From Clostridia bacterium DTU025 (GTDB lineage: Bacteria; Bacillota; DTU025), in assembly GCA_001513145.1 (NCBI GenBank), contig LFSP01000006.1, positions 1-37,018 of the forward strand: a stretch of 37,018 nt of DNA, read 5' to 3'. Every line of letters begins with the position of its first letter. The first letter of the stretch is position 1. A program made the position numbers and the translations under genes. The notes beneath the pieces were generated by a model. The model ran no database searches, was not told the origin of the DNA, and worked only from the letters and a program-made list of their open reading frames with translations. This document shows, piece by piece, positions 1 through 34,235 of the stretch.

Positions 1-1002
1 GGCGCCAGCGTGGAGGAAGTACAGGAGAAGCTGAACGCGATGAAGCGCGATTGGCTCTTAGGCCTGCCGGTGGGAGAGAAACAGCAGACAGTCAGCGAGT
101 ACCTCATCCGCTGGCTGGAAGATGCGGCTCGGCCCTCGATCCGCCCCACTACTTACCAGCGATACGCCACTCTGGTCAGAAACTACATTTCACCGCGAAT
201 CGGCACCGTGGAGCTGGGCAAACTGTCGCCCGTGCACGTCCAGGCCCTATATGCCGACTTGGAGCGGGACGGGGTATCGCCCCGGATGCGCCAGTTTATC
301 CACGCCGTCCTGCACCGGGCGATGGAGCAAGCGGTTAAGTGGCAACTCATAGCCCGCAACCCCTGCGCCGCCGTGGAGCGGCCGCGGGTCCCCCGCAAGG
401 AGTTTCGGGTTCTCGACGCCGATGAAGCCCGCCGGCTCTTGGAGGCTGCGAAGGGGGACCGGCTGGAAGCCCTTCTGGTCCTCGCCCTCACCACAGGGAT
501 GCGCCAGGGCGAGCTATTGGGCCTCCAATGGGAGGATGTAGACTTGAAAAACGGCACCATCTACGTCCGCCGCACCCTACTGGAAGTGGACGGTCGGCTC
601 ACCACGGGCGAAACGAAGTCAGGCCGGAACCGCCGGCTGGACCTCCCGGAAATCGCCGTGGAAGCACTCCGAGAGCACCGCAAGCGCATGATGGCCGAAG
701 GGCACCCTGGGCCGTGGGTCTTTTGCGATACCAAAGGCGGCCCGATCCGAAAGAACAACCTCATCCGCCGCTGGTTTAAGCCGCTGCTGGAGAAGGCCGG
801 TCTGCCGGAGATTCGCTTCCACGACCTCCGGCACACCGCCGCCACGTTGCTTCTCACGTTGGGCGTCCATCCCAAGGTGGTGCAGGAGCGGCTAGGCCAC
901 TCACAGATCAGCGTCACGCTGGACACCTACAGCCATGTGCTTCCGTCCCTGCAAAAGCAGGCCGCTAGCAAACTTGACGCCATGTTCCGGTCGGGATCAT
1001 AG
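1..1002 (+). CDS. Tyrosine recombinase / phage-type integrase (5' end cut by window edge)
   Basis: Site-specific recombinase that would insert and excise a mobile element by DNA breakage and rejoining through a tyrosine. The frame is open to base 1, so the N-terminus probably lies outside; the first in-window start is a GTG at base 10, from which 330 residues are read. Counting from there, an N-terminal SAM-like core-binding domain covers about residues 28-125 and the catalytic domain about 130-325. The full catalytic set is visible: R165 (TGMRQGE), K203 (TKSGRNR), H271 and R274 (HDLRH), H297 (LGHS) and Y307 (DTYSHVLP). It reads toward the 3' end of tRNA-Lys, 87 bases beyond its stop, the usual arrangement for an element integrated in a tRNA gene. 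The rest of the element would lie to the left. Family assignment is secure; element type (phage or ICE) is not visible. Confidence 0.93.
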   Translation, partial: GASVEEVQEKLNAMKRDWLLGLPVGEKQQTVSEYLIRWLEDAARPSIRPTTYQRYATLVRNYISPRIGTVELGKLSPVHVQALYADLERDGVSPRMRQFIHAVLHRAMEQAVKWQLIARNPCAAVERPRVPRKEFRVLDADEARRLLEAAKGDRLEALLVLALTTGMRQGELLGLQWEDVDLKNGTIYVRRTLLEVDGRLTTGETKSGRNRRLDLPEIAVEALREHRKRMMAEGHPGPWVFCDTKGGPIRKNNLIRRWFKPLLEKAGLPEIRFHDLRHTAATLLLTLGVHPKVVQERLGHSQISVTLDTYSHVLPSLQKQAASKLDAMFRSGS

Positions 1003-1047
1003 GCACACTTTAGGCACACATTTCAGCCCGTCACACTCATGGCACAC
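1001..1047. repeat. GGCACAC short direct repeats after the integrase gene
   Basis: GGCACAC occurs at 1002-1008, 1013-1019 and 1041-1047, with a one-base variant (GTCACAC) at 1030-1036. The steps between them are 11, 17 and 11 bases, near multiples of a helical half-turn or turn. Short direct repeats between an integrase gene and its attachment site are typical of arm-type integrase binding sites; that role is inferred. Confidence 0.5.
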
Positions 1048-1082
1048 AAAAAGCCCTCCAGGAAACCCGCTCCTGAAGGGCT
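1048..1082 (-). terminator. Rho-independent terminator of tRNA-Lys
   Basis: Read on the minus strand, an 11-bp stem (1072-1082 with 1052-1062, one G-U pair) with a 9-base loop is followed by TTTTT at 1052-1048. It lies just downstream of the tRNA 3' end. It sits between tRNA and integrase, so it may have been carried or rebuilt by the inserted element. Confidence 0.75.
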
Positions 1083-1088
1083 ATTCGT

Positions 1089-1164
1089 TGGTGAGCCGCG
1101 CGGGACTCGAACCCGCGACACCCGGATTAAAAGTCCGGTGCTCTACCAGCTGAGCTAGCGGCCC
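1089..1164 (-). tRNA. tRNA-Lys (anticodon UUU)
   Basis: A 76-base cloverleaf on the minus strand. The acceptor stem GGGCCGC pairs with GCGGCTC, with one G-U at 2-71. The D arm contains AGCTCAGCTGGTAGAGC. The anticodon loop is CTTTTAA, giving anticodon TTT (lysine), and the T loop is GGTTCGAGTCC. Discriminator A and the CCA end are encoded (1092-1089). The 3' half faces the integrase gene, making it the probable attachment site of the element at the left edge. Confidence 0.96.
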
Positions 1165-1186
1165 ACCTAAAGGAGTATCGTATGAT

Positions 1187-1216
1187 ATTATAACACGAAC
1201 GGAACAGCCCCTGCAA
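1187..1216 (-). promoter_or_regulatory. Sigma-A-type promoter for tRNA-Lys
   Basis: On the minus strand TTGCAG (1216-1211), an 18-base spacer and a perfect TATAAT (1192-1187) lie 22 bases before the tRNA 5' end. It separates the tRNA from dnaB, which ends at 1253. Confidence 0.65.
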
Positions 1217-1252
1217 TCATGCGGGAAGACCCAAAATACCAGCTCACAGGCG

Positions 1253-2614
1253 TTAACCTATGACGGCCCGCGCCCTTTCGAGGTTGCGGAACCTGGTGTA
1301 CTCCCGCTGCCACAGCAGTTCGAAGAAGCCGGTGGGTCCGTTGCGCTGCTTGGCGATGATGATCTCGGCGATACCGCGGCGCTCGGGCTCGATGTCGGGC
1401 TTGTAGTAGTCTTCCCTGTAGATGAAGGCCACCACGTCTGCGGACTGCTCGATCTCGCCGCTTTCCTTGAGGTGCGAAAGCAGCGGGCGCTTATCGCTTG
1501 TGGCCTCCACAGCCCTGCTGAGCTGGGCCAAAGCCACCACCGGCACCTCCAGCTCCCTGGCCAGGGCCTTCAAGGACCTCGTGATCTCCGCGATCTCTTG
1601 CTGCCTGTTCTCAACCCGGGCACGGCCCTGCACGAGCTGGAGATAGTCTATGATCACGAGCGCCAGGCCGTGCTCGGCCTTGACCCGCCTGGCGCGGGTG
1701 CGGATCTCCAGGGCGGTGATGGCGGGCGTATCGTCGATGAAGATCGGGGCCGAGCTCAGCTTACCGATGGCGAAGGAAAGCCTGTTCCAGTCCTCGTCGG
1801 AGAGGTTGCCGCGCCTGAGCTTCTGGCCGTCGACGGTAGCCTGGGAGCAGAGCATCCTCTGGGCCAGCTGCTCACAGCTCATCTCCAGGCTGAACACCAG
1901 CACTGGCTTGCGCTCCACGAGGCCCACGTGCTCCGCGATGTTCAGCGCGAACGCCGTCTTGCCCATGCTGGGTCTGGCCGCGACGACGATGAGCTCGGAA
2001 GACTGCAGTCCGGAGAGCATGTTGTCCATCTCGATGAAGCCGGTGGGCAGTCCGGTGAGAGCCCCCTTGCTGGCGTAAAGCCGTTCGATTCGGTCGAACG
2101 TGGACATCATCACCGACTTCATATCGGAGACGGTAGCCGTCTCTCCGCGTTGAGAGATCCTGAAAACCAGCTGTTCGGCCTTGTCGAGCGCCACGTCGAC
2201 CTCGGAAGACGGATCATACCCCAGGGCAGCTATCTGGGCACCTGCGTTCACCAGCGACCTGAGGATCGACTTGTTCTTGACGATCTTCGCGTAATACTCG
2301 CAATTTGCCGAAGTGGGCACGGAGTTCGCCAGCGTGCTGATGTAAGAGGCGCCACCCACCTGCTCCAGGGCGTTCTTGGCCTTCAGGGCCTCGGTGACCG
2401 TGACCAGGTCGGCGGGCTCGCCCCTGTTGAACAGCTCGATGAGGGTGTCGAAGACCACCCTGTGCGACTCCCGGTAGAAGTCCTCGGCTACAAGGAGCTC
2501 AGCAGCGATGGCGATGGCCTCTTTGTCAAGCAACATTGAACCCAGTGTAGACTGCTCCGCCTCCAGGCTCTGAGGCGGGACCCTTTCAGCGACAGCTGCT
2601 ATAGGCGCCGTCAT
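1253..2614 (-). CDS. dnaB: Replicative DNA helicase DnaB
   Basis: Hexameric 5'-3' helicase that unwinds DNA at the replication fork. The 453-residue length is normal for DnaB. The N-terminal DnaB domain covers about residues 13-115 (LEAEQSTLGSMLLD) and the RecA-like ATPase domain about 180-450. The Walker A motif ARPSMGKTA is near residue 215, followed by FSLEMS and a Walker B segment VIIDYLQL. The ATG lies behind GGGAG and only 6 bases after the lonC stop, so it is probably cotranscribed with lonC and rplI. The order rplI-lonC-dnaB replaces the rplI-dnaC arrangement seen in Bacillus. No intein or frameshift is visible. Confidence 0.97.
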   Translation of the reverse strand: MTAPIAAVAERVPPQSLEAEQSTLGSMLLDKEAIAIAAELLVAEDFYRESHRVVFDTLIELFNRGEPADLVTVTEALKAKNALEQVGGASYISTLANSVPTSANCEYYAKIVKNKSILRSLVNAGAQIAALGYDPSSEVDVALDKAEQLVFRISQRGETATVSDMKSVMMSTFDRIERLYASKGALTGLPTGFIEMDNMLSGLQSSELIVVAARPSMGKTAFALNIAEHVGLVERKPVLVFSLEMSCEQLAQRMLCSQATVDGQKLRRGNLSDEDWNRLSFAIGKLSSAPIFIDDTPAITALEIRTRARRVKAEHGLALVIIDYLQLVQGRARVENRQQEIAEITRSLKALARELEVPVVALAQLSRAVEATSDKRPLLSHLKESGEIEQSADVVAFIYREDYYKPDIEPERRGIAEIIIAKQRNGPTGFFELLWQREYTRFRNLERARAVIG

Positions 2615-2620
2615 GCGCTT

Positions 2621-4576
2621 TCACTCCCTAGACCTGACGAAATCCAGCGGACCATCGAACACGTGTGAGATGGCCTCTTCAACCCGGCTCACCGGGATGA
2701 CCTCTATCCCCGTGATGTCAGATGGCACGTCCTTGGTGTTCTCAGCAGGCACGATTACCTTGGCGATGCCGGCCTGGCGGGCGCCGTATATCTTCTCGAA
2801 TATGCCGCCTACTTCCCGCACATGGCCCTGGATGGAGAGCTCGCCGGTGACGGCCACATCCTGCCTGATGGGGACGCCGTACACCGCGCTCAGCAGGGCG
2901 AAGAGTATTGCCGTGCCTGCCGACGGGCCGTCGATGTCGCCGCCCCCGACCACGTTGACGTGGACGTCGTAGTCGGAGATGTCGGCTCCGGTGAGCAGCC
3001 TGAACACGGAGGCGGCGTTGAACACGGAGTCCTTGGCCATGCTGCCGGCGGTCTCGTTGAACCTGATGGCGCCCTTGCCCTCCTCGCGGGCAGGGAAGGC
3101 CACCGCCTCAATCTCGATGACCGAACCGAGGAAGCCGGCGACGCCCAGGCCGAAGATCTTGCCCTTCATCGAGGCGTCGGAGGCCTTGGCGCGCACGTAC
3201 GGTGACAGTCTTCCCAGACGGATGCTCTCTTCAACATCCCGTACGGTGATGGTGAGGTCTTTGGCGGAGTCCTCGTGACGCTGGCCGGCGCGGAGCAAGG
3301 CGACGCCATAGGCATCTACCAGCAGATTTGTGGCCTTGCGCCCCTCAATGGTGTAGTCGCTGACAAGCTCAGGCACCCCGGGCTCCATCTTCACGCCCAG
3401 CTTGGCCGCGGCGTTGCGCACTATCTCCTGTATGTGCCTCTGCGTCAGCGGCTCGAAGAACACTTCGGCCGTTCTGGAGCGCAGGGCCGGATTGAGCTCT
3501 GAGGGGTCGCGGGTGGTGGCCCCGATCAGCACGAAGTCGGCCGGCGCCCCCTCGGCGAAGAGCCTCTTGATGTAAGTTGGGACGTTGGGATCGCTCGAGT
3601 CGAAGTACGACGACTCGAAGGTCACCCGCTTGTCCTCCATCACCTTCAGCAGCTTGTTCAGGAGGATAGGATCCATCTCGCCGATCTCGTCGATGAAGAG
3701 CACGCCGCCGTGGGCTTCAGTGACGAGGCCCAGTTTGGGCTCGGGCACGCCGCCCTCGGCCAGGTCCCTGCGTGCCCCCTGATAGATGGGGTCATGCACT
3801 GAGCCTAGGAGGGGGTTGGTGACCTCCCTGGGGTCCCAGCGCAGGGTGGTGCCATCCACCTCGACGAACTTGGCCTCCTCAGCGAACGGCGAGAACTGGG
3901 ACTTCTTAGCCTCCTCCAGGGCGAGGCGCGCGGCTGTGGTCTTGCCGACTCCCGGAGGGCCGTACAATATCACGTGCTGCGGGTACGGCGAAGCTATCTT
4001 CGCCAGGAGGGCCCTGACCGCGCTGTCTTGCCCCACTATCTCCGACATGGAGCTGGGCCTGATGATCTCCATGGCCGATTTCGCCAGACGCCTGCCCTCG
4101 AGCTTCTCCAGCTCCTCAAGCTTGCGCAGGGCCTCCGGGGTGTCAGGGCCAGCGTCTTCGCGCAGGATCTGCATCCTGATCTCGTTCACGTAGTCCTCGT
4201 GGCGCTGCTGCATCCGATCGTTGATGCGCCGCTCGATCTTCTCCTCCAGGCGCCGGCGGGCGACGATATCGGCGATCTCCTCTTCGATGCTGGAGAGCGC
4301 CGCCTCGATGCCGTCAGGGCTCGGAGGGGCTTCTATGGTGGGATCCTCGAACACCAGCCGCTGCAGAGCCAGCACCCTGTCCTCTATCCTGGACGACCGC
4401 ATGAGCTCGAGGGCGTCCAGCTTGCCGGCTTTCAGCACCAGCTTATCGGGTCCGTAAAGCTCCGACAGCATGGTGAACAACGCCATGACCTGCCTGGCCA
4501 GCTGCTCATCATCTTGCAGCTTGTCGGCGAGGTTCTTGCTCCCGATGCTGCGGAAACGTTCAACGAGTGACTTCAT
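2621..4576 (-). CDS. lonC: Lon-family ATP-dependent protease, LonC (spore_lon_C) type
   Basis: AAA+ serine protease of 651 residues. It lacks the classical N-terminal LON substrate domain and instead has about 170 residues of helical, charged sequence, matching the LonC subfamily common in spore formers. Walker A GPPGVGKTT is near residues 206-214, and Walker B LFIDEIGEMD is intact with its D-E pair, so ATPase activity is plausible. The C-terminal protease domain carries the Ser-Lys dyad: S552 (DGPSAGTA) and K595 (FEKIYGA), 43 residues apart as in E. coli Lon (S679/K722). The ATG is preceded by AGGAGGATC and a second copy of the same sequence 15 bases further up. It lies between rplI and dnaB with small gaps, suggesting one operon. 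Substrates are unknown. Confidence 0.93.
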   Translation of the reverse strand: MKSLVERFRSIGSKNLADKLQDDEQLARQVMALFTMLSELYGPDKLVLKAGKLDALELMRSSRIEDRVLALQRLVFEDPTIEAPPSPDGIEAALSSIEEEIADIVARRRLEEKIERRINDRMQQRHEDYVNEIRMQILREDAGPDTPEALRKLEELEKLEGRRLAKSAMEIIRPSSMSEIVGQDSAVRALLAKIASPYPQHVILYGPPGVGKTTAARLALEEAKKSQFSPFAEEAKFVEVDGTTLRWDPREVTNPLLGSVHDPIYQGARRDLAEGGVPEPKLGLVTEAHGGVLFIDEIGEMDPILLNKLLKVMEDKRVTFESSYFDSSDPNVPTYIKRLFAEGAPADFVLIGATTRDPSELNPALRSRTAEVFFEPLTQRHIQEIVRNAAAKLGVKMEPGVPELVSDYTIEGRKATNLLVDAYGVALLRAGQRHEDSAKDLTITVRDVEESIRLGRLSPYVRAKASDASMKGKIFGLGVAGFLGSVIEIEAVAFPAREEGKGAIRFNETAGSMAKDSVFNAASVFRLLTGADISDYDVHVNVVGGGDIDGPSAGTAILFALLSAVYGVPIRQDVAVTGELSIQGHVREVGGIFEKIYGARQAGIAKVIVPAENTKDVPSDITGIEVIPVSRVEEAISHVFDGPLDFVRSRE

Positions 4577-4581
4577 GAACT

Positions 4582-4606
4582 GATCCTCCTGATACCGATC
4601 CTCCTG
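4582..4606 (-). repeat. Doubled ribosome binding site in front of lonC
   Basis: The 10-base string CAGGAGGATC occurs twice on the minus strand (4606-4597 and 4591-4582), 15 bases apart. Only the copy nearer the ATG at 4576 is well spaced for initiation. Confidence 0.6.
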
Positions 4607-4615
4607 CTACTCTGG

Positions 4616-5062
4616 CTACTCCGGGACGACCTTGACTGCCACGTCAGCACTCACCCCAGGGTACACTCGAACGGTCACCACATGCTCCCCGACTTCCTTG
4701 ATGGGATCGCGAAGCTCAACCTTCCGGCGATCCACCTCGATGCCGATGACTTCCCTGATGGCGTCGGCAATGTCTTTGGACGTAATGGAGCCGTAGAGCT
4801 TTCCGGCCTCGCCTGTCTTGGCCCTGATGGTGATGCCTGTGGACTTGAGCTTTCGGGCGGCCTCCCGCGCCTTCGCTTCCTCCTTGGCCTCACGCCGCCT
4901 CTCCACCTCGCGTAGCGCCTCGATGCGCTTGAGCTGGCCAGACGATGCCGGGATCGCCAGGCCCCTGGGGATGAGGTAGTTGCGGGCGTACCCCTCGGCC
5001 ACTTCCACCACGGTGTCACGCTTGCCCAGGCCGGCAACGTCCTTCTGAAGAACTACTTTCAT
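4616..5062 (-). CDS. rplI: 50S ribosomal protein L9
   Basis: Structural protein of the large ribosomal subunit that binds 23S rRNA at the base of the L1 stalk. The 148 residues match the usual length. The start is the ATG at 5062, giving MKVVLQKDVAGLGKRDTVVEV, which is the canonical L9 N-terminus; the open frame extends further upstream but that part does not resemble L9. AAGGGGG precedes the ATG. The N-domain (to about residue 50), the connecting helix rich in E/K/R/A and the C-terminal domain (KLYGSITSKDIADAI) are all present. It follows the yybS-like gene after 35 bases and precedes lonC. Confidence 0.97.
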   Translation of the reverse strand: MKVVLQKDVAGLGKRDTVVEVAEGYARNYLIPRGLAIPASSGQLKRIEALREVERRREAKEEAKAREAARKLKSTGITIRAKTGEAGKLYGSITSKDIADAIREVIGIEVDRRKVELRDPIKEVGEHVVTVRVYPGVSADVAVKVVPE

Positions 5063-5097
5063 GATTCCGCCCCCTTTGCCATGAGGTGCCCACGGCC

Positions 5098-6063
5098 CTA
5101 ACCCTGTCTGCGCCGCACGAGCCTTCGGAAGTCCACCCATCCATCCAGGAGCCCGGCCAGGGTGAGGGCCCAGTTGAACGGGGGAGTGACATACACCATG
5201 AACAGCAGGAACGCCCTGAAGCCCACCGGCACCCTGAAGTGCTCCATCACGCCCCAAGCCACTGCCATCCCGAACACCGTGTACAGCAGCACGTACATCA
5301 TAACCACGTTGCTCACCAGGCGCCCGAGAATCTCGCCGCCCACTGAGGATAGCAACTGCCCGACGAGCAGCGCCGCGATGAGGCCCCACGCCCACTGCCA
5401 GCCCAAACGCCACTGCCCGAAGGGAGGGAGCGCTTCCACTTCCACCTTCGTGCGCCTGAGGATCCAACGTGCCGTGGAGTAGGCTATCAGCGCAGCAAGC
5501 AGCGCGCCGCCCATCAGAATGGTTGGCAGGAACATCTCAAACCACTGCGGAAGCAGCTCTGCCATGGCTTTGGCCTGTTCCAGAGCCTGCTGGGGGACGC
5601 CCAGTCTCTCATACATGGCCGAGCTCTGAGATGCTGCCTCCGCCATGGCGTTCTGGAGCCGCTCCAACATGGCAGACGGCGACAGGCCTGACGTTGCCGC
5701 GACTATCAGGAAGTCAGTGATGACCACTCCCGCCTGTGCCGCCGCGGTCGCCAGGAGCGTCGTCATCGCCCGCGCCGGCTTGGCCATGAGCCCGCCCATC
5801 ACCAGCCCCACCAGGGCCACCCGTATGAGCACCGTGATGCCGTCGATGGGGCCCAACACTAGGCCGACACCTAGAGCCGACACAACGCTCGCCACCGCCC
5901 CGGCGCGGAGGCCGTTTCTCACCACCAGGATGGCCACGGGCACCGGGATCACGTATATCAAGAGCTGCGTATATACATTGGCCACATACAGAACGATGGT
6001 CAGCGCGGCGAGCAGGGCACCTTCGGTAAGGGCTCTGGTGCCCTGGCTATGTCGTGAACTCAA
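5098..6063 (-). CDS. YybS-like DUF2232 multi-spanning membrane protein
   Basis: Integral membrane protein of unknown function, 321 residues. The start chosen is a TTG at 6063: it overlaps the stop of the MazG-like gene (TTGA arrangement) and has AGGAAGGGG about 8 bases upstream. The longer frame up to 6219 overlaps that gene and looks non-native. About seven or eight hydrophobic segments are visible: two near residues 15-60, then a run including GLVLGPIDG, VGLVMGGLMAKPARA and the C-terminal VYVTPPFNWALTLAGLLDGW. Position between rpsR and rplI matches yybS in Bacillus-type gene orders, which supports the DUF2232 assignment. Confidence 0.8.
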   Translation of the reverse strand: MSSRHSQGTRALTEGALLAALTIVLYVANVYTQLLIYVIPVPVAILVVRNGLRAGAVASVVSALGVGLVLGPIDGITVLIRVALVGLVMGGLMAKPARAMTTLLATAAAQAGVVITDFLIVAATSGLSPSAMLERLQNAMAEAASQSSAMYERLGVPQQALEQAKAMAELLPQWFEMFLPTILMGGALLAALIAYSTARWILRRTKVEVEALPPFGQWRLGWQWAWGLIAALLVGQLLSSVGGEILGRLVSNVVMMYVLLYTVFGMAVAWGVMEHFRVPVGFRAFLLFMVYVTPPFNWALTLAGLLDGWVDFRRLVRRRQG

Positions 6064-6377
6064 ACGGAACGCCCCTTCCTGTGCGCGGCCAATGACGTGA
6101 AGTCGCCGTACCACTCTTCGATCTCGTGGCCGTTTTGGATGTTCTCCCTGATGTTGGCGTCTATCTGTGCGTCCAAAGCAGCGTACCCTATGCCCAGGTG
6201 CTTTGCCAACAGGTAGCATCCGATGACGACATTGGCCATGTCGGCAACCCTCGGGCCGTCGTCGGCGCCGGCCAACGAGCGGTGGATCTGGGCCACGCTG
6301 CTCAGCAGCTCTGCTTTGAGCCAGTCGACGGTCTTGTAGTTGCGCGCAATGTCATTGTCGCGCCCGTACAACATCAT
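6060..6377 (-). CDS. MazG-like family protein
   Basis: Small soluble protein of 105 residues resembling the MazG-like family found in spore-forming Bacillota. It is related to all-alpha NTP pyrophosphatases, but the function of this short form is not established. Visible features: DWLKAELLSSVAQIHRSL, then a metal-site-like segment ADMANVVIGCYLLAKHLGI, and an acidic helix EIEEWYGD. Two consecutive ATGs (6377 and 6374) lie behind GGGGAGGA; the second has better spacing. Its stop overlaps the start of the yybS-like gene, so the two are translationally coupled. Confidence 0.75.
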   Translation of the reverse strand: MMLYGRDNDIARNYKTVDWLKAELLSSVAQIHRSLAGADDGPRVADMANVVIGCYLLAKHLGIGYAALDAQIDANIRENIQNGHEIEEWYGDFTSLAAHRKGRSV

Positions 6378-6452
6378 GATTCCTCCCCGACCAACAATGC
6401 ACCTATGTCCGTTCTCGATGGTCGGCCCGAACTCCTGCCGCGCTCATCTGCG

Positions 6453-6484
6453 AGAAAACTCTTTGACGCAGGGCGCCAAAGAGT
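6453..6484 (-). terminator. Rho-independent terminator after rpsR
   Basis: On the minus strand ACTCTTTG (6484-6477) pairs with CAAAGAGT (6465-6458), an 8-bp stem followed by TTTTC. It separates the rpsF-ssb-rpsR operon from the MazG-like gene. The T tract is short, so some read-through is likely. Confidence 0.65.
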
Positions 6485-24582: not shown

Positions 24583-25197
24583 TCAGGGGCTCATCCTTTC
24601 CCTTCGTCCCGGCTCGTTCCCTGCGCCGCCCGGCCCACCCGGCTTCACCGGCCAGCCCGCGGCGCCCAGTCTCATCCACACCCCGGCGGCGGCGATGCAC
24701 TTCAGGACATCTCCCGGAAGGTAGGGGATCACGCCTACGGATACGGCCTGCGCGAGGCCGATCCTGGCCACCTGTGCCAACCGCGCCACTCCCAGCATGT
24801 CCACGACGACTATGCCTCCGACGGCAGCACCTAAAGCGCCCGCCGCAGCCCTCCCCAGCTTTCCGCCTGGCCCCATCCGCAGGGCCAGCCTAGCCACCAG
24901 TGAGCACACCGCTGCCCCGGGGACGAACCCCACAAGGTAGCCTCCGGTTGGGCCCAGGATCATCCCTGCTCCAGACCTGCCCCCTGAGAACACCGGCATG
25001 CCCAGGGCGCCCGCCAGCAAGTACACCACCTGGCTCAGCGCGGCTTCACGCGGCTCAAGGAGAAGCCCGCTCAGCATCACTCCGAGCGTCTGCGCCGTGA
25101 CTGGGACGGGGCTCCACGGCAGGTCGACGGCGATCCAAGATAGCACAGCCGTCACGGATGCCATCAGCGCGACTCTGGCCATGTTCCTCAGCATCAT
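24583..25197 (-). CDS. bioY: BioY biotin ECF-transporter S component
   Basis: Substrate-binding membrane subunit for biotin uptake. 204 residues starting at ATG 25197 (a second ATG follows at 25194), with GAGGGG upstream; the 21 extra codons further up cross a leader hairpin. Family motifs: SPVPVTAQTLGVMLSGLLLEP, QVVYLLAGALGMPVFSGG, GPTGGYLVGFVPGA and IPYLPGDVLKC. About six membrane segments. No EcfA/EcfT genes are present here, so it would share the energising module or act alone. The C-terminal tail is basic and Gly/Pro-rich. It lies between rpmH and the origin, not a usual place, suggesting insertion of a singleton gene. Confidence 0.92.
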   Translation of the reverse strand: MMLRNMARVALMASVTAVLSWIAVDLPWSPVPVTAQTLGVMLSGLLLEPREAALSQVVYLLAGALGMPVFSGGRSGAGMILGPTGGYLVGFVPGAAVCSLVARLALRMGPGGKLGRAAAGALGAAVGGIVVVDMLGVARLAQVARIGLAQAVSVGVIPYLPGDVLKCIAAAGVWMRLGAAGWPVKPGGPGGAGNEPGRRERMSP

Positions 25198-25220
25198 AGC
25201 GCCGCCCCTCTCTTCTGCGC

Positions 25221-25260
25221 GTGGCATGCACCGCGCAGCGTTCCGCGCGGTGCTGGCCAC
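25221..25260 (-). promoter_or_regulatory. Long hairpin at the 5' end of the bioY transcript
   Basis: A 9-bp perfect inverted repeat (GCACCGCGC at 25228-25236, GCGCGGTGC at 25245-25253; 8-base loop) is extended past a 2x2 mismatch by a further 5 bp (GTGGC/GCCAC, 25221-25225 and 25256-25260). It would begin within a base or two of the predicted bioY start of transcription. No T tract follows, so it is not a simple terminator. Confidence 0.55.
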
Positions 25261-25343: not shown

Positions 25344-25373
25344 TTGCCTCCTGACCTGCGGCTCTGGTATGAT
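25344..25373 (+). promoter_or_regulatory. Possible plus-strand promoter at the left edge of the origin
   Basis: TTGCCT (25344-25349), 18 bases, TATGAT (25368-25373). Transcription would run through the DnaA-box region toward the GHKL-HTH gene, about 540 bases away. Confidence 0.4.
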
Positions 25374-25385
25374 GGAAATCGCAAA

Positions 25386-25404
25386 CCGGTGAATATTTCA
25401 CCGG
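25386..25404. promoter_or_regulatory. Operator-like palindrome CCGGTGAA-TAT-TTCACCGG
   Basis: Perfect 8-bp arms with a 3-base centre, located about +6 to +24 relative to the preceding promoter candidate. Such a symmetric site just after a start of transcription suggests a repressor site. It is not followed by a T tract. Confidence 0.45.
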
Positions 25405-25445: not shown

Positions 25446-25868
25446 TTATGCACAGTCTGTGGATTGTTCTGTGGACAACGTGTGCGAATTGCGTGGGTTT
25501 TCCCCGAACGCCCGATAATGGGCGCGATCCATCGAGAAATCTCCTGTGGGCAAAGGCATAAAAACCCCCTTACCTCGGGTTTCGCAGGTGAAAGCGTTCA
25601 CATTAGTCTGCTCCAATGGCGGTAGGATATCCACAGTTGGATGTGGAATACTTGTGTATGATGTGTGGGCGACCGGCGGGTCGCGAGTACCTGCTGAAGA
25701 GTTTTCAACATGTGTGGAAAACGCTGTGGATAACTTGGAGCCCGGATCGAGGGCGCGTGGGCTCCCGACGATAGGCGCTAGCAGGTTTCGGAGAAAGGAG
25801 TATAATAGTCGGTCAATTTCGAACATCTCTAGCTGGCGTCCCTTTTGTCCACAGATCTCTGTGGATTG
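25446..25868. other. oriC: Origin of replication, left DnaA-box cluster
   Basis: Matches to TTATnCACA: TTATGCACA at 25446-25454 (perfect) and, on the other strand, TGTGGATAA at 25725-25733 (perfect TTATCCACA). One-mismatch copies: 25470-25478, 25627-25635, 25713-25721 and 25845-25853. Weaker two-mismatch copies: 25458-25466, 25642-25650 and 25860-25868. The stretch has no convincing gene; the 116-codon open frame at 25546 simply reads across the boxes. This cluster, left of dnaA, plus the one right of dnaA form a bipartite origin as in Bacillus. Confidence 0.88.
25778..25806 (+). promoter_or_regulatory. Promoter candidate for the GHKL-HTH gene and dnaA
   Basis: A perfect TATAAT at 25801-25806 with a poor -35 (CTAGCA) 17 bases upstream. 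It lies between the strongest DnaA box (25725) and two more (25845, 25860), so DnaA could regulate it. It is 118 bases before the gene at 25924 and is the nearest good -10 upstream of dnaA. Confidence 0.45.
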
Positions 25869-25923: not shown

Positions 25924-26970
25924 ATGAGCTTCTTCAAGCTGTGGTTTGGCAAAGTGGATAAGTCTCCAGCCCAGCTAAACACGGTTGCGGCCGAGGCGCC
26001 GTCGCCTGTAGAAGCGCATACTCCGTCATACAGCGTACGCATAGCATCGTATGATTCCCTAACGTCTCTGCCCCGCACATTCGATCTTGCAGGTTCCGAC
26101 TTCAGCAAGGTAGTGGAAGATGCATCCGCCAAGGTGTACGCGCTCTGCCGCGAAAAAGGCGGCAGTATCCCATATATAGTGCTGCGCGAAGCCCTTGAGA
26201 ATCTCATTCACGCCGACTTTCGTGACGCCATCGTCACCGTGTTCCCCGACGGTAACACGGTGCGCATCTCGGACCACGGTCCAGGCATATCTGACGTCCG
26301 CCGGGCGTTCCAGCCTGGATTCACTACGGCCTCAGGAAAGCTGCTGTCTAACATAAAAGGCGTGGGCTCCGGTCTCCCAATAATAAAGGAATCCATGGAG
26401 CTGATGGGGGGCACCGTCACGATCGAAGAGAACCTGGACTGCGGCTGTGTGCTGACCATCTCGTCCACGCATGTGCCGCCACCCGCCTCCGAACCCGATG
26501 CGGATCCGTCCGATCATGAGCGGGGCCAGGAGCCAGACTTCGAAGCTCCGTCGCGGTTTCCCGAATCTTCGAAAGCCTCTTCCTCCGCTGAATTGCGCAA
26601 GCGGTCTGGGGATATGCTAACTTCTGCCATGCCGGCTAGCGCGGCTGATCCGATGCAGGAAGTCCAGGCCGTTCAGTCGAAGATGGAGCAGGGTCAGCCG
26701 AAATCGAAAGCATCCGGTGATGGCCACGAGCTTTCTGACGAGGCCATCGACGCCGCCCTGACGTCACGCCAGAAGAAGGTTTTCCTGCTCATAGCGGAGA
26801 TGGGGGAGGTGGGCCCCTCCGTGGTCACCAAGGAGCTGGACATAAGCCTGAGCACTGCTTACAGAGACCTGGTGACGCTGGAGGAGCTCAACCTGGTGGT
26901 GAGCATGGAAGGCGGCAAACGCAAGCTGACCCGCAGAGGCATCGACTTCCTCGGCTACATCTTCAAGTAG
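25924..26970 (+). CDS. GHKL-type ATPase domain fused to a C-terminal helix-turn-helix domain
   Basis: 348-residue protein encoded inside the origin, immediately upstream of dnaA. The ATP-binding domain of the histidine-kinase/anti-sigma/GyrB superfamily occupies about residues 60-185. The N box is E89-ALE-N93 (REALENLIHA), G1 is D117-HGPGI, and G2 is G146-VGSGL. No phospho-accepting His domain, receiver or membrane helix is visible, so it is not a standard sensor kinase. A polar, probably disordered linker (about 190-275) leads to a winged-helix domain (about 276-348: LTSRQKKVFLLIAEMG, SVVTKELDISLSTAYRDLVTLEELNLV). The ATG lies behind GGAGGG. It is probably cotranscribed with dnaA 39 bases downstream. 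Inference: an ATP-responsive DNA-binding regulator of initiation or sporulation. I know no named family. Confidence 0.8.
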   Translation: MSFFKLWFGKVDKSPAQLNTVAAEAPSPVEAHTPSYSVRIASYDSLTSLPRTFDLAGSDFSKVVEDASAKVYALCREKGGSIPYIVLREALENLIHADFRDAIVTVFPDGNTVRISDHGPGISDVRRAFQPGFTTASGKLLSNIKGVGSGLPIIKESMELMGGTVTIEENLDCGCVLTISSTHVPPPASEPDADPSDHERGQEPDFEAPSRFPESSKASSSAELRKRSGDMLTSAMPASAADPMQEVQAVQSKMEQGQPKSKASGDGHELSDEAIDAALTSRQKKVFLLIAEMGEVGPSVVTKELDISLSTAYRDLVTLEELNLVVSMEGGKRKLTRRGIDFLGYIFK

Positions 26971-26983
26971 ACATGGTCCATGT
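26971..26983. promoter_or_regulatory. Palindrome between the GHKL-HTH gene and dnaA
   Basis: ACATGG-T-CCATGT, a perfect 6-1-6 inverted repeat that starts on the base after the GHKL-HTH stop codon, in the 39-base gap before dnaA. With a one-base centre it cannot form a good hairpin, which favours a protein-binding site; which protein is unknown. Confidence 0.45.
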
Positions 26984-28494: not shown

Positions 28495-28514
28495 GCTCAG
28501 GGTGTTGATGTCTT

Positions 28515-28744
28515 TGTGGACATGCTGTGAAAAGCGTGTTGAAAAGCGGTTGAAAGCTGCCCTGCCTTTCTCCTCCTGTGGATATGTGTGAGGATCTGCT
28601 ATCAAATCCTCTTTGCAATCCACAGGGCTTTCCACCACCAGGCGCCAAGCGTAGCTGTGGAGTTAACACTTATCCAGATATCCACAGGCTCTACTACTAC
28701 GACGGCTGACGTACATTATCCTAATAAGGTATTACTCATAGTAG
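28515..28744. other. oriC: Origin of replication, unwinding side (DnaA boxes, DnaA-trio-like element, AT-rich stretch)
   Basis: Between dnaA and dnaN. DnaA-box-like sites: TGTGGATAT (28577-28585), TTATCCAGA (28670-28678) and ATATCCACA (28678-28686), each one mismatch from TTATCCACA; weaker two-mismatch copies at 28515-28523, 28616-28624 and 28656-28664. The last strong box is followed by GGCT and then CTACTACTAC (28691-28700), the spacing and sequence expected of DnaA-trio elements that load DnaA on single strands. An AT-rich stretch with TACATTATCC and TAATAAGGTATTACT (28712-28735) follows as the probable melting region. The layout matches the basal unwinding system known from Bacillus. Confidence 0.85.
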
Positions 28745-28787
28745 CCAGGTATGCCTGTCAGACAGGTTTCTGGGGAGGTTAGGTAGC

Positions 28788-31254: not shown

Positions 31255-34235
<2,981 letters not shown>

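Follow-up and report, generated by a model that had tools for sequence, protein, structure and literature searches.

What does an ATPase gene do inside a bacterial replication origin? Control of initiation is known chiefly from E. coli, B. subtilis and Caulobacter, and for most other lineages we know of no recognised DnaA regulator. In the window (the whole 37,018-nucleotide stretch of Clostridia bacterium DTU025 DNA analysed here), an open reading frame for a protein with a GHKL ATPase domain and a winged helix (GHKL-wHTH) lies between an array of DnaA boxes and dnaA (Table 1), as the original prediction had placed it. Since the gene adjoins dnaA wherever this could be checked and its product appears to combine an ATP switch with a DNA-binding head, it probably helps to set the timing or strength of the start of DNA replication in the bacteria that carry it. 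Our preferred reading of the sequence data, to which we assign a probability of about 0.5, is that the protein is dedicated to the dnaA operon and the origin, which it would regulate by ATP-gated DNA binding. Replication and the energy state of the cell could be joined by a missing link for which this gene, single-copy, linked to dnaA in two phyla and encoding a near-invariant ATP site and a DNA-binding head, is a direct candidate. The carriers include Coriobacteriia, in which a genetic test may be possible.

Table 1 Features of the origin region and of the GHKL-wHTH gene, in window coordinates.
Feature	Position	Strand	Remarks
bioY	24583-25260	-	in the window and L032 only, placed between rpmH and the origin
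Promoter-like site TTGCCT-18-TATGAT	25344..25373	+	TG before the -10; ahead of the DnaA-box array
Palindrome CCGGTGAA-TAT-TTCACCGG	25386..25404	.	just past the promoter; candidate operator
DnaA-box array, left half of oriC	25446..25868	.	ten boxes
Conserved non-DnaA block AGTCGGTCAATTTCGAACATCTCTAGCTGGC	25807..25837	.	contains TAGCTGG/CCAGCTA; candidate site
GHKL-wHTH protein	25924..26970	+	ORF, 348 aa; HATPase_c 4e-12
N-terminal hydrophobic/basic segment MSFFKLWFGK	25924..25953	+	in many Bacillota members, not in Actinomycetota
GHKL (Bergerat) ATPase domain	26014..26469	+	~residues 31-182; Pfam, AF2, conservation in 44 + 142 relatives
Polar linker	26470..26724	+	residues 183-267; length varies among relatives (alignment)
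Winged helix	26734..26967	+	residues 271-348; AF2, Foldseek; Pfam on relatives
dnaA	27010..28494	+	39 bp downstream of the GHKL-wHTH gene
dnaA-dnaN intergenic	28495..28787	.	further DnaA-box-like sites (read by eye); probable right half of oriC
DciA-type helicase-loader gene	31255-32193		between recF and gyrB

Structure prediction indicates that the protein is a GHKL ATPase domain joined to a winged helix through a flexible linker. The start codon matches that of three relatives (L032, L004 and L005). Pfam HATPase_c covers residues 85-179 above its cut-off, and the whole domain is ordered in AlphaFold (AF2 pLDDT mostly 80-97). The motifs E89-x3-N93, D117-x-GPG and G146-x-G-x-G supply the N, G1 and G2 boxes of a Bergerat fold, which places the protein in the GHKL ATPase superfamily. 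Most of the linker is modelled as disordered, with a mean pLDDT of ~40 across most of residues 200-266. The C-terminal domain, modelled alone, reaches a pLDDT of 93.6 and has the wHTH fold of winged-helix DNA-binding proteins; the nearest folds found by Foldseek are the PhiH1-repressor-like protein 3b73, MarR proteins and the AspA centromere-binding protein. Its recognition helix lies around LSTAYRDLVTLEE and its wing is GKRKLT. Models of 30 family sequences repeat the pattern of ordered GHKL domain, disordered linker and ordered C-terminal domain. Pfam wHTH matches are sub-threshold on the window protein and clear on relatives (best E-values: TrmB 1.6e-7, HTH_IclR 5e-7, HVO_A0261_N 3.8e-8); among 44 members HATPase_c is matched in all 44 and wHTH families in most, with HVO_A0261_N in 28, HTH_IclR in 25 and TrmB in 18. 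Pfam matched neither a DHp nor a receiver domain in the window protein, and no HisKA-type match was found in the 44 members at E 0.01. Intact ATP-site motifs, a polar linker, a C-terminal winged helix and a lack of DHp and receiver domains had all been proposed from the sequence, and each has held up. The N-terminal segment, which could be a membrane anchor or docking peptide, takes forms such as MSFFKLWFGK, MVLFRLLF and MASFLLRLFGK in Bacillota members, with a helical moment of ~0.4-0.7.

The ATP site is near-invariant. Across 142 relatives, G146 and G150 are both present in all 142, N93, D117, G119 and G121 in 141 each, and E89 in 139; H96, A97 and G163 are also invariant or nearly so. Conservation extends to the wHTH, where R314 is kept in 132 relatives, L316 in 136 and L319 in 139. 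An E-x3-N motif and G boxes as in active GHKL enzymes could also point to a protein kinase of the SpoIIAB, RsbW or CapK kind, which would phosphorylate Ser/Thr of a partner, either DnaA or a regulator encoded elsewhere, while the wHTH brings the protein to the origin. Weak spIIAB matches in 3 of 44 members and the CapK precedent (PMC13373217) argue for such an enzyme; a score of 20.7 bits against the spIIAB cut-off of 135 and the lack of an adjoining STAS or sigma-factor gene in the window argue against it, and we consider it improbable. An anti-sigma factor of the SpoIIAB/RsbW type was rejected because of the same score and because no STAS or sigma-factor gene lies alongside in the window or in relatives, where the neighbours are rpmH, rnpA, bioY, dnaA and dnaN.

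Carriers of the gene make up 32 of 399 sampled Bacillota genomes (E <= 1e-20) and 155 of 397 sampled Actinomycetota genomes (E <= 1e-15), among them Coriobacteriia, Thermoleophilia and Candidatus Hydromicrobium, and the gene is missing from many genomes of both phyla. One carrier record titled Acidobacteria (L056) has a sequence close to Miltoncostaeales and is probably mis-binned. In a de-duplicated set of 142 loci from the two phyla (~61 lineages when grouped at 65% protein identity), all 140 testable loci have dnaA immediately after the gene and co-directional with it, mostly across a gap of less than ~100 bp. In the record dnaA lies directly downstream at 133 of the 142; at seven of the other nine the gene closes a complete chromosome record whose base 1 is the start of dnaA or is within ~110 bases of it, and two with too little sequence were left out. 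The gene is thus encoded at oriC in every testable locus, and the family is linked to dnaA across two phyla. The original prediction had named homologues scattered at random loci as the outcome that would count against it; no such scatter was seen. Extra matches in carrier genomes were weak generic GHKL proteins, with no second copy away from dnaA. In the window the 39 bp before dnaA contain no terminator-like site, so that the two genes probably share an operon, in line with the common transcript that had been suggested.

Upstream, 124 of the 142 loci have divergently oriented genes of the rpmH-rnpA-yidD-yidC-jag block, and 17 of the 18 loci without it have ~1.5 kb or less of upstream sequence, most of them far less. 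The remaining locus is a rearranged origin (L154, Actinomycetota genome G580, 1-6468) in which dnaN, recF and rpmH have moved: the first two are found on one side, reversed in direction, and rpmH is found on the far side; the GHKL-wHTH gene and dnaA are still adjacent and co-directional. This bears on the possibility that the protein is an ordinary one-component transcription factor for unrelated genes, with the dnaA neighbourhood merely an inherited gene order. Gene order near dnaA is generally conservative, as the rpmH-rnpA-yidD-yidC block illustrates, but a link that spans two phyla and outlasts the L154 rearrangement, together with candidate sites that are single-copy in the genome, makes this explanation a poor one, about as doubtful as the kinase. 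An anti-phage or mobile-element origin was also rejected: PADLOC matches were at the wHTH level only, viral contigs and phages contained no family member, and the single plasmid match was a generic ATPase fragment, with no full-length relative. The protein tree shows strong clusters by phylum and family and leaves the deep branching order unsettled, a pattern that fits old, mostly vertical descent, and the regulator is best read from these sequences as ancient. In three genomes of the window's order (G009-G011) DnaA is highly diverged, with ~41% identity and a very long branch, and the GHKL-wHTH gene still adjoins it. One genome (G018, locus L208) is without the gene, yet has a long rpmH-dnaA gap and a carrier-like CCAGCTAGATGGCT site upstream of dnaA, possibly reflecting recent loss.

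The origin region suggests where such a protein might bind. The DnaA boxes, at 25446, 25458, 25470, 25545, 25627, 25642, 25713, 25725, 25845 and 25860, occupy matching positions relative to the gene start, give or take a few bases, in eight members of the window's family, whose proteins are 48-67% identical to the window protein. The extended -10 of the promoter-like site (TG-n-TAT-n-AT) is kept in relatives whose sequence extends that far. Of two palindromes in the original prediction, the one at 26971-26983 was conserved in none of the relatives examined and was set aside. The other, beside the promoter, is real and lies in an operator-like position, but only its core TGAAT-N-TTTCA is retained, in the three nearest relatives; at up to two mismatches it has no other copy in the genome. 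Two relatives in which no bioY was found, L004 and L005, also keep the core, so it is probably not a biotin operator. The block at 25807-25837 is a candidate site for the GHKL-wHTH protein or another origin factor. Its CCAGCTA/TAGCTGG word is the clearest non-DnaA-box word among those most enriched upstream of the gene, in 12 lineages against 1.7 expected (0.30 versus 0.031 per kb). Among Bacillota families with the gene, 8 of 13 contain CCAGCTA, compared with 2 of 34 genomes that lack the gene (Fisher p = 1.4e-4, a test that ignores phylogeny and the longer intergenic regions of carriers). The full 19-mer of the block has no second copy in the genome. Both sites are therefore single-copy at the thresholds used, which fits a local role rather than a regulon. 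As binding sites they are leads: neither is conserved throughout the family, DnaA boxes dominate the enriched words and a search for an operator common to the whole family found none. The leader gave no Rfam match to an RNA element. Further along the window, the DciA-type frame continues for ~220 residues past its Pfam domain and into the longest gyrB frame; where the gene really ends may therefore need to be checked.

Several lines of evidence thus favour a regulator of the dnaA operon: the unbroken dnaA linkage, the intact L154 pair, the near-invariant ATP site, the modelled repressor-like wHTH, the conserved extended -10, the lack of phage or plasmid relatives among those searched and the CCAGCTA enrichment near the gene. 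Counted against it are that synteny by itself is no proof of a replication role, that the candidate sites are not family-wide and that many genomes of the same phyla do without the gene. In the mechanism we propose, this single-copy regulator would be made from the start of the operon that it probably controls. Its GHKL domain would bind ATP, and the nucleotide state, possibly together with a partner protein, would alter lid closure and dimerisation; these in turn would set DNA binding by the tethered winged helix just upstream of, within or beside the DnaA-box array. Once bound, the protein would either activate or repress the regulator-dnaA operon; a direct effect on orisome assembly is also possible, since the sites fall within oriC.

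One alternative has the protein working directly on DnaA or the orisome, with the wHTH serving only to dock it at oriC and with minor effects on transcription. YabA, SirA and Soj act on DnaA or the orisome in B. subtilis, YabA as a DnaA inhibitor, and in a stronger form of this proposal YabA took over the job in later-branching Bacillota. The position of the gene inside oriC is consistent with direct action, as is the distribution of YabA, which was searched for in Bacillota and found in 0 of 32 carriers against 187 of 367 non-carriers, and in another sample in 0 of 19 against 23 of 42. The DnaA tree, however, puts YabA in one crown group and carriers mostly on earlier branches. With very few independent events on that tree, the exclusion suggests replacement and is no proof of it; it may be one clade-level event, and its use as statistical proof was dropped because phylogenetic control left too few independent pairs. 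We regard direct action on initiation as unlikely, if less so than the kinase. Possible, and tentatively put forward from the same sequence comparisons, is a broader version of the operon-regulator reading: an undescribed class of initiation regulators, shared by Bacillota and Actinomycetota, through which ATP state would govern origin firing and the expression of dnaA, and which would have been lost from those later-branching Bacillota in which YabA is used.

A specific link to sporulation, also raised by the original prediction, is not supported. A sensor for sporulation entry would agree with the presence of Spo0A in 12 Bacillota carriers, the window genome among them; Spo0A is absent from two Bacillota carriers and from all 13 Actinomycetota carriers tested. 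With 15 of 27 tested carriers lacking Spo0A, a sporulation role is not general, and as such it is largely refuted and very improbable. The window genome (G000), like many relatives, encodes two proteins with a Spo0A C-terminal domain (contigs C13:2496-2807 and C35:84234-84545).

Compared with known systems, the protein is built from parts of known kinds, and our searches turned up no described family that has this architecture beside dnaA. The window protein reached no NCBIfam model (best 25.9 bits against a cut-off of 60.2), matches of relatives fell on general kinase or wHTH parts, and neither Pfam, NCBIfam and PADLOC nor exact-term searches of open-licence papers returned a description, which could exist in the literature under another name; a named family with an unrelated role, which would have spoken against the original prediction, was likewise not matched. 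In both sequence and fold, the ATPase domain comes closest to histidine kinase catalytic domains (CpxA, HK853, PhoQ). Unlike these kinases, the window protein has no DHp, sensor or receiver; its identification as a sensor histidine kinase was rejected for want of a DHp and because the C-terminal part is a wHTH. SpoIIAB and RsbW share the GHKL fold, the E-x3-N motif and the lack of a DHp, but are short single-domain proteins paired with STAS antagonists, whereas the window protein carries a wHTH. The top Foldseek entry to span both domains in the same order, over 339 columns, is DIP2311 (PDB 3lmm). In this protein, which we take to belong to the AlbA_2/HATPase_c_4 family (COG2865), a GHKL-like fold precedes a winged helix. 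That target is longer and aligns poorly (10-14% identity, rmsd up to 11.7); neither AlbA_2 nor HATPase_c_4 was matched by Pfam on the window protein or the 44 members, and a regulator of this type was rejected since the N-terminal AlbA_2 domain is lacking. YabA, never in the same genome as the GHKL-wHTH gene in our samples, may be a functional counterpart, but it is a small unrelated protein encoded away from dnaA, with no homology to the window protein. The CapK/CapS pair consists of a GHKL kinase and a MarR-like wHTH repressor and controls the operon that the two head (PMC13373217). These are two proteins beside immune operons, CapK being HTH-STAS-GHKL and CapS STAS-wHTH (PMC13373217), whereas the window family is a single GHKL-linker-wHTH protein beside dnaA; this domain order and the absence of a STAS match in Pfam on the window protein or the 44 members led us to reject identity with CapK. 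By analogy, CapK/CapS is nonetheless the closest experimental precedent for a GHKL domain and a wHTH that together control the operon they head.
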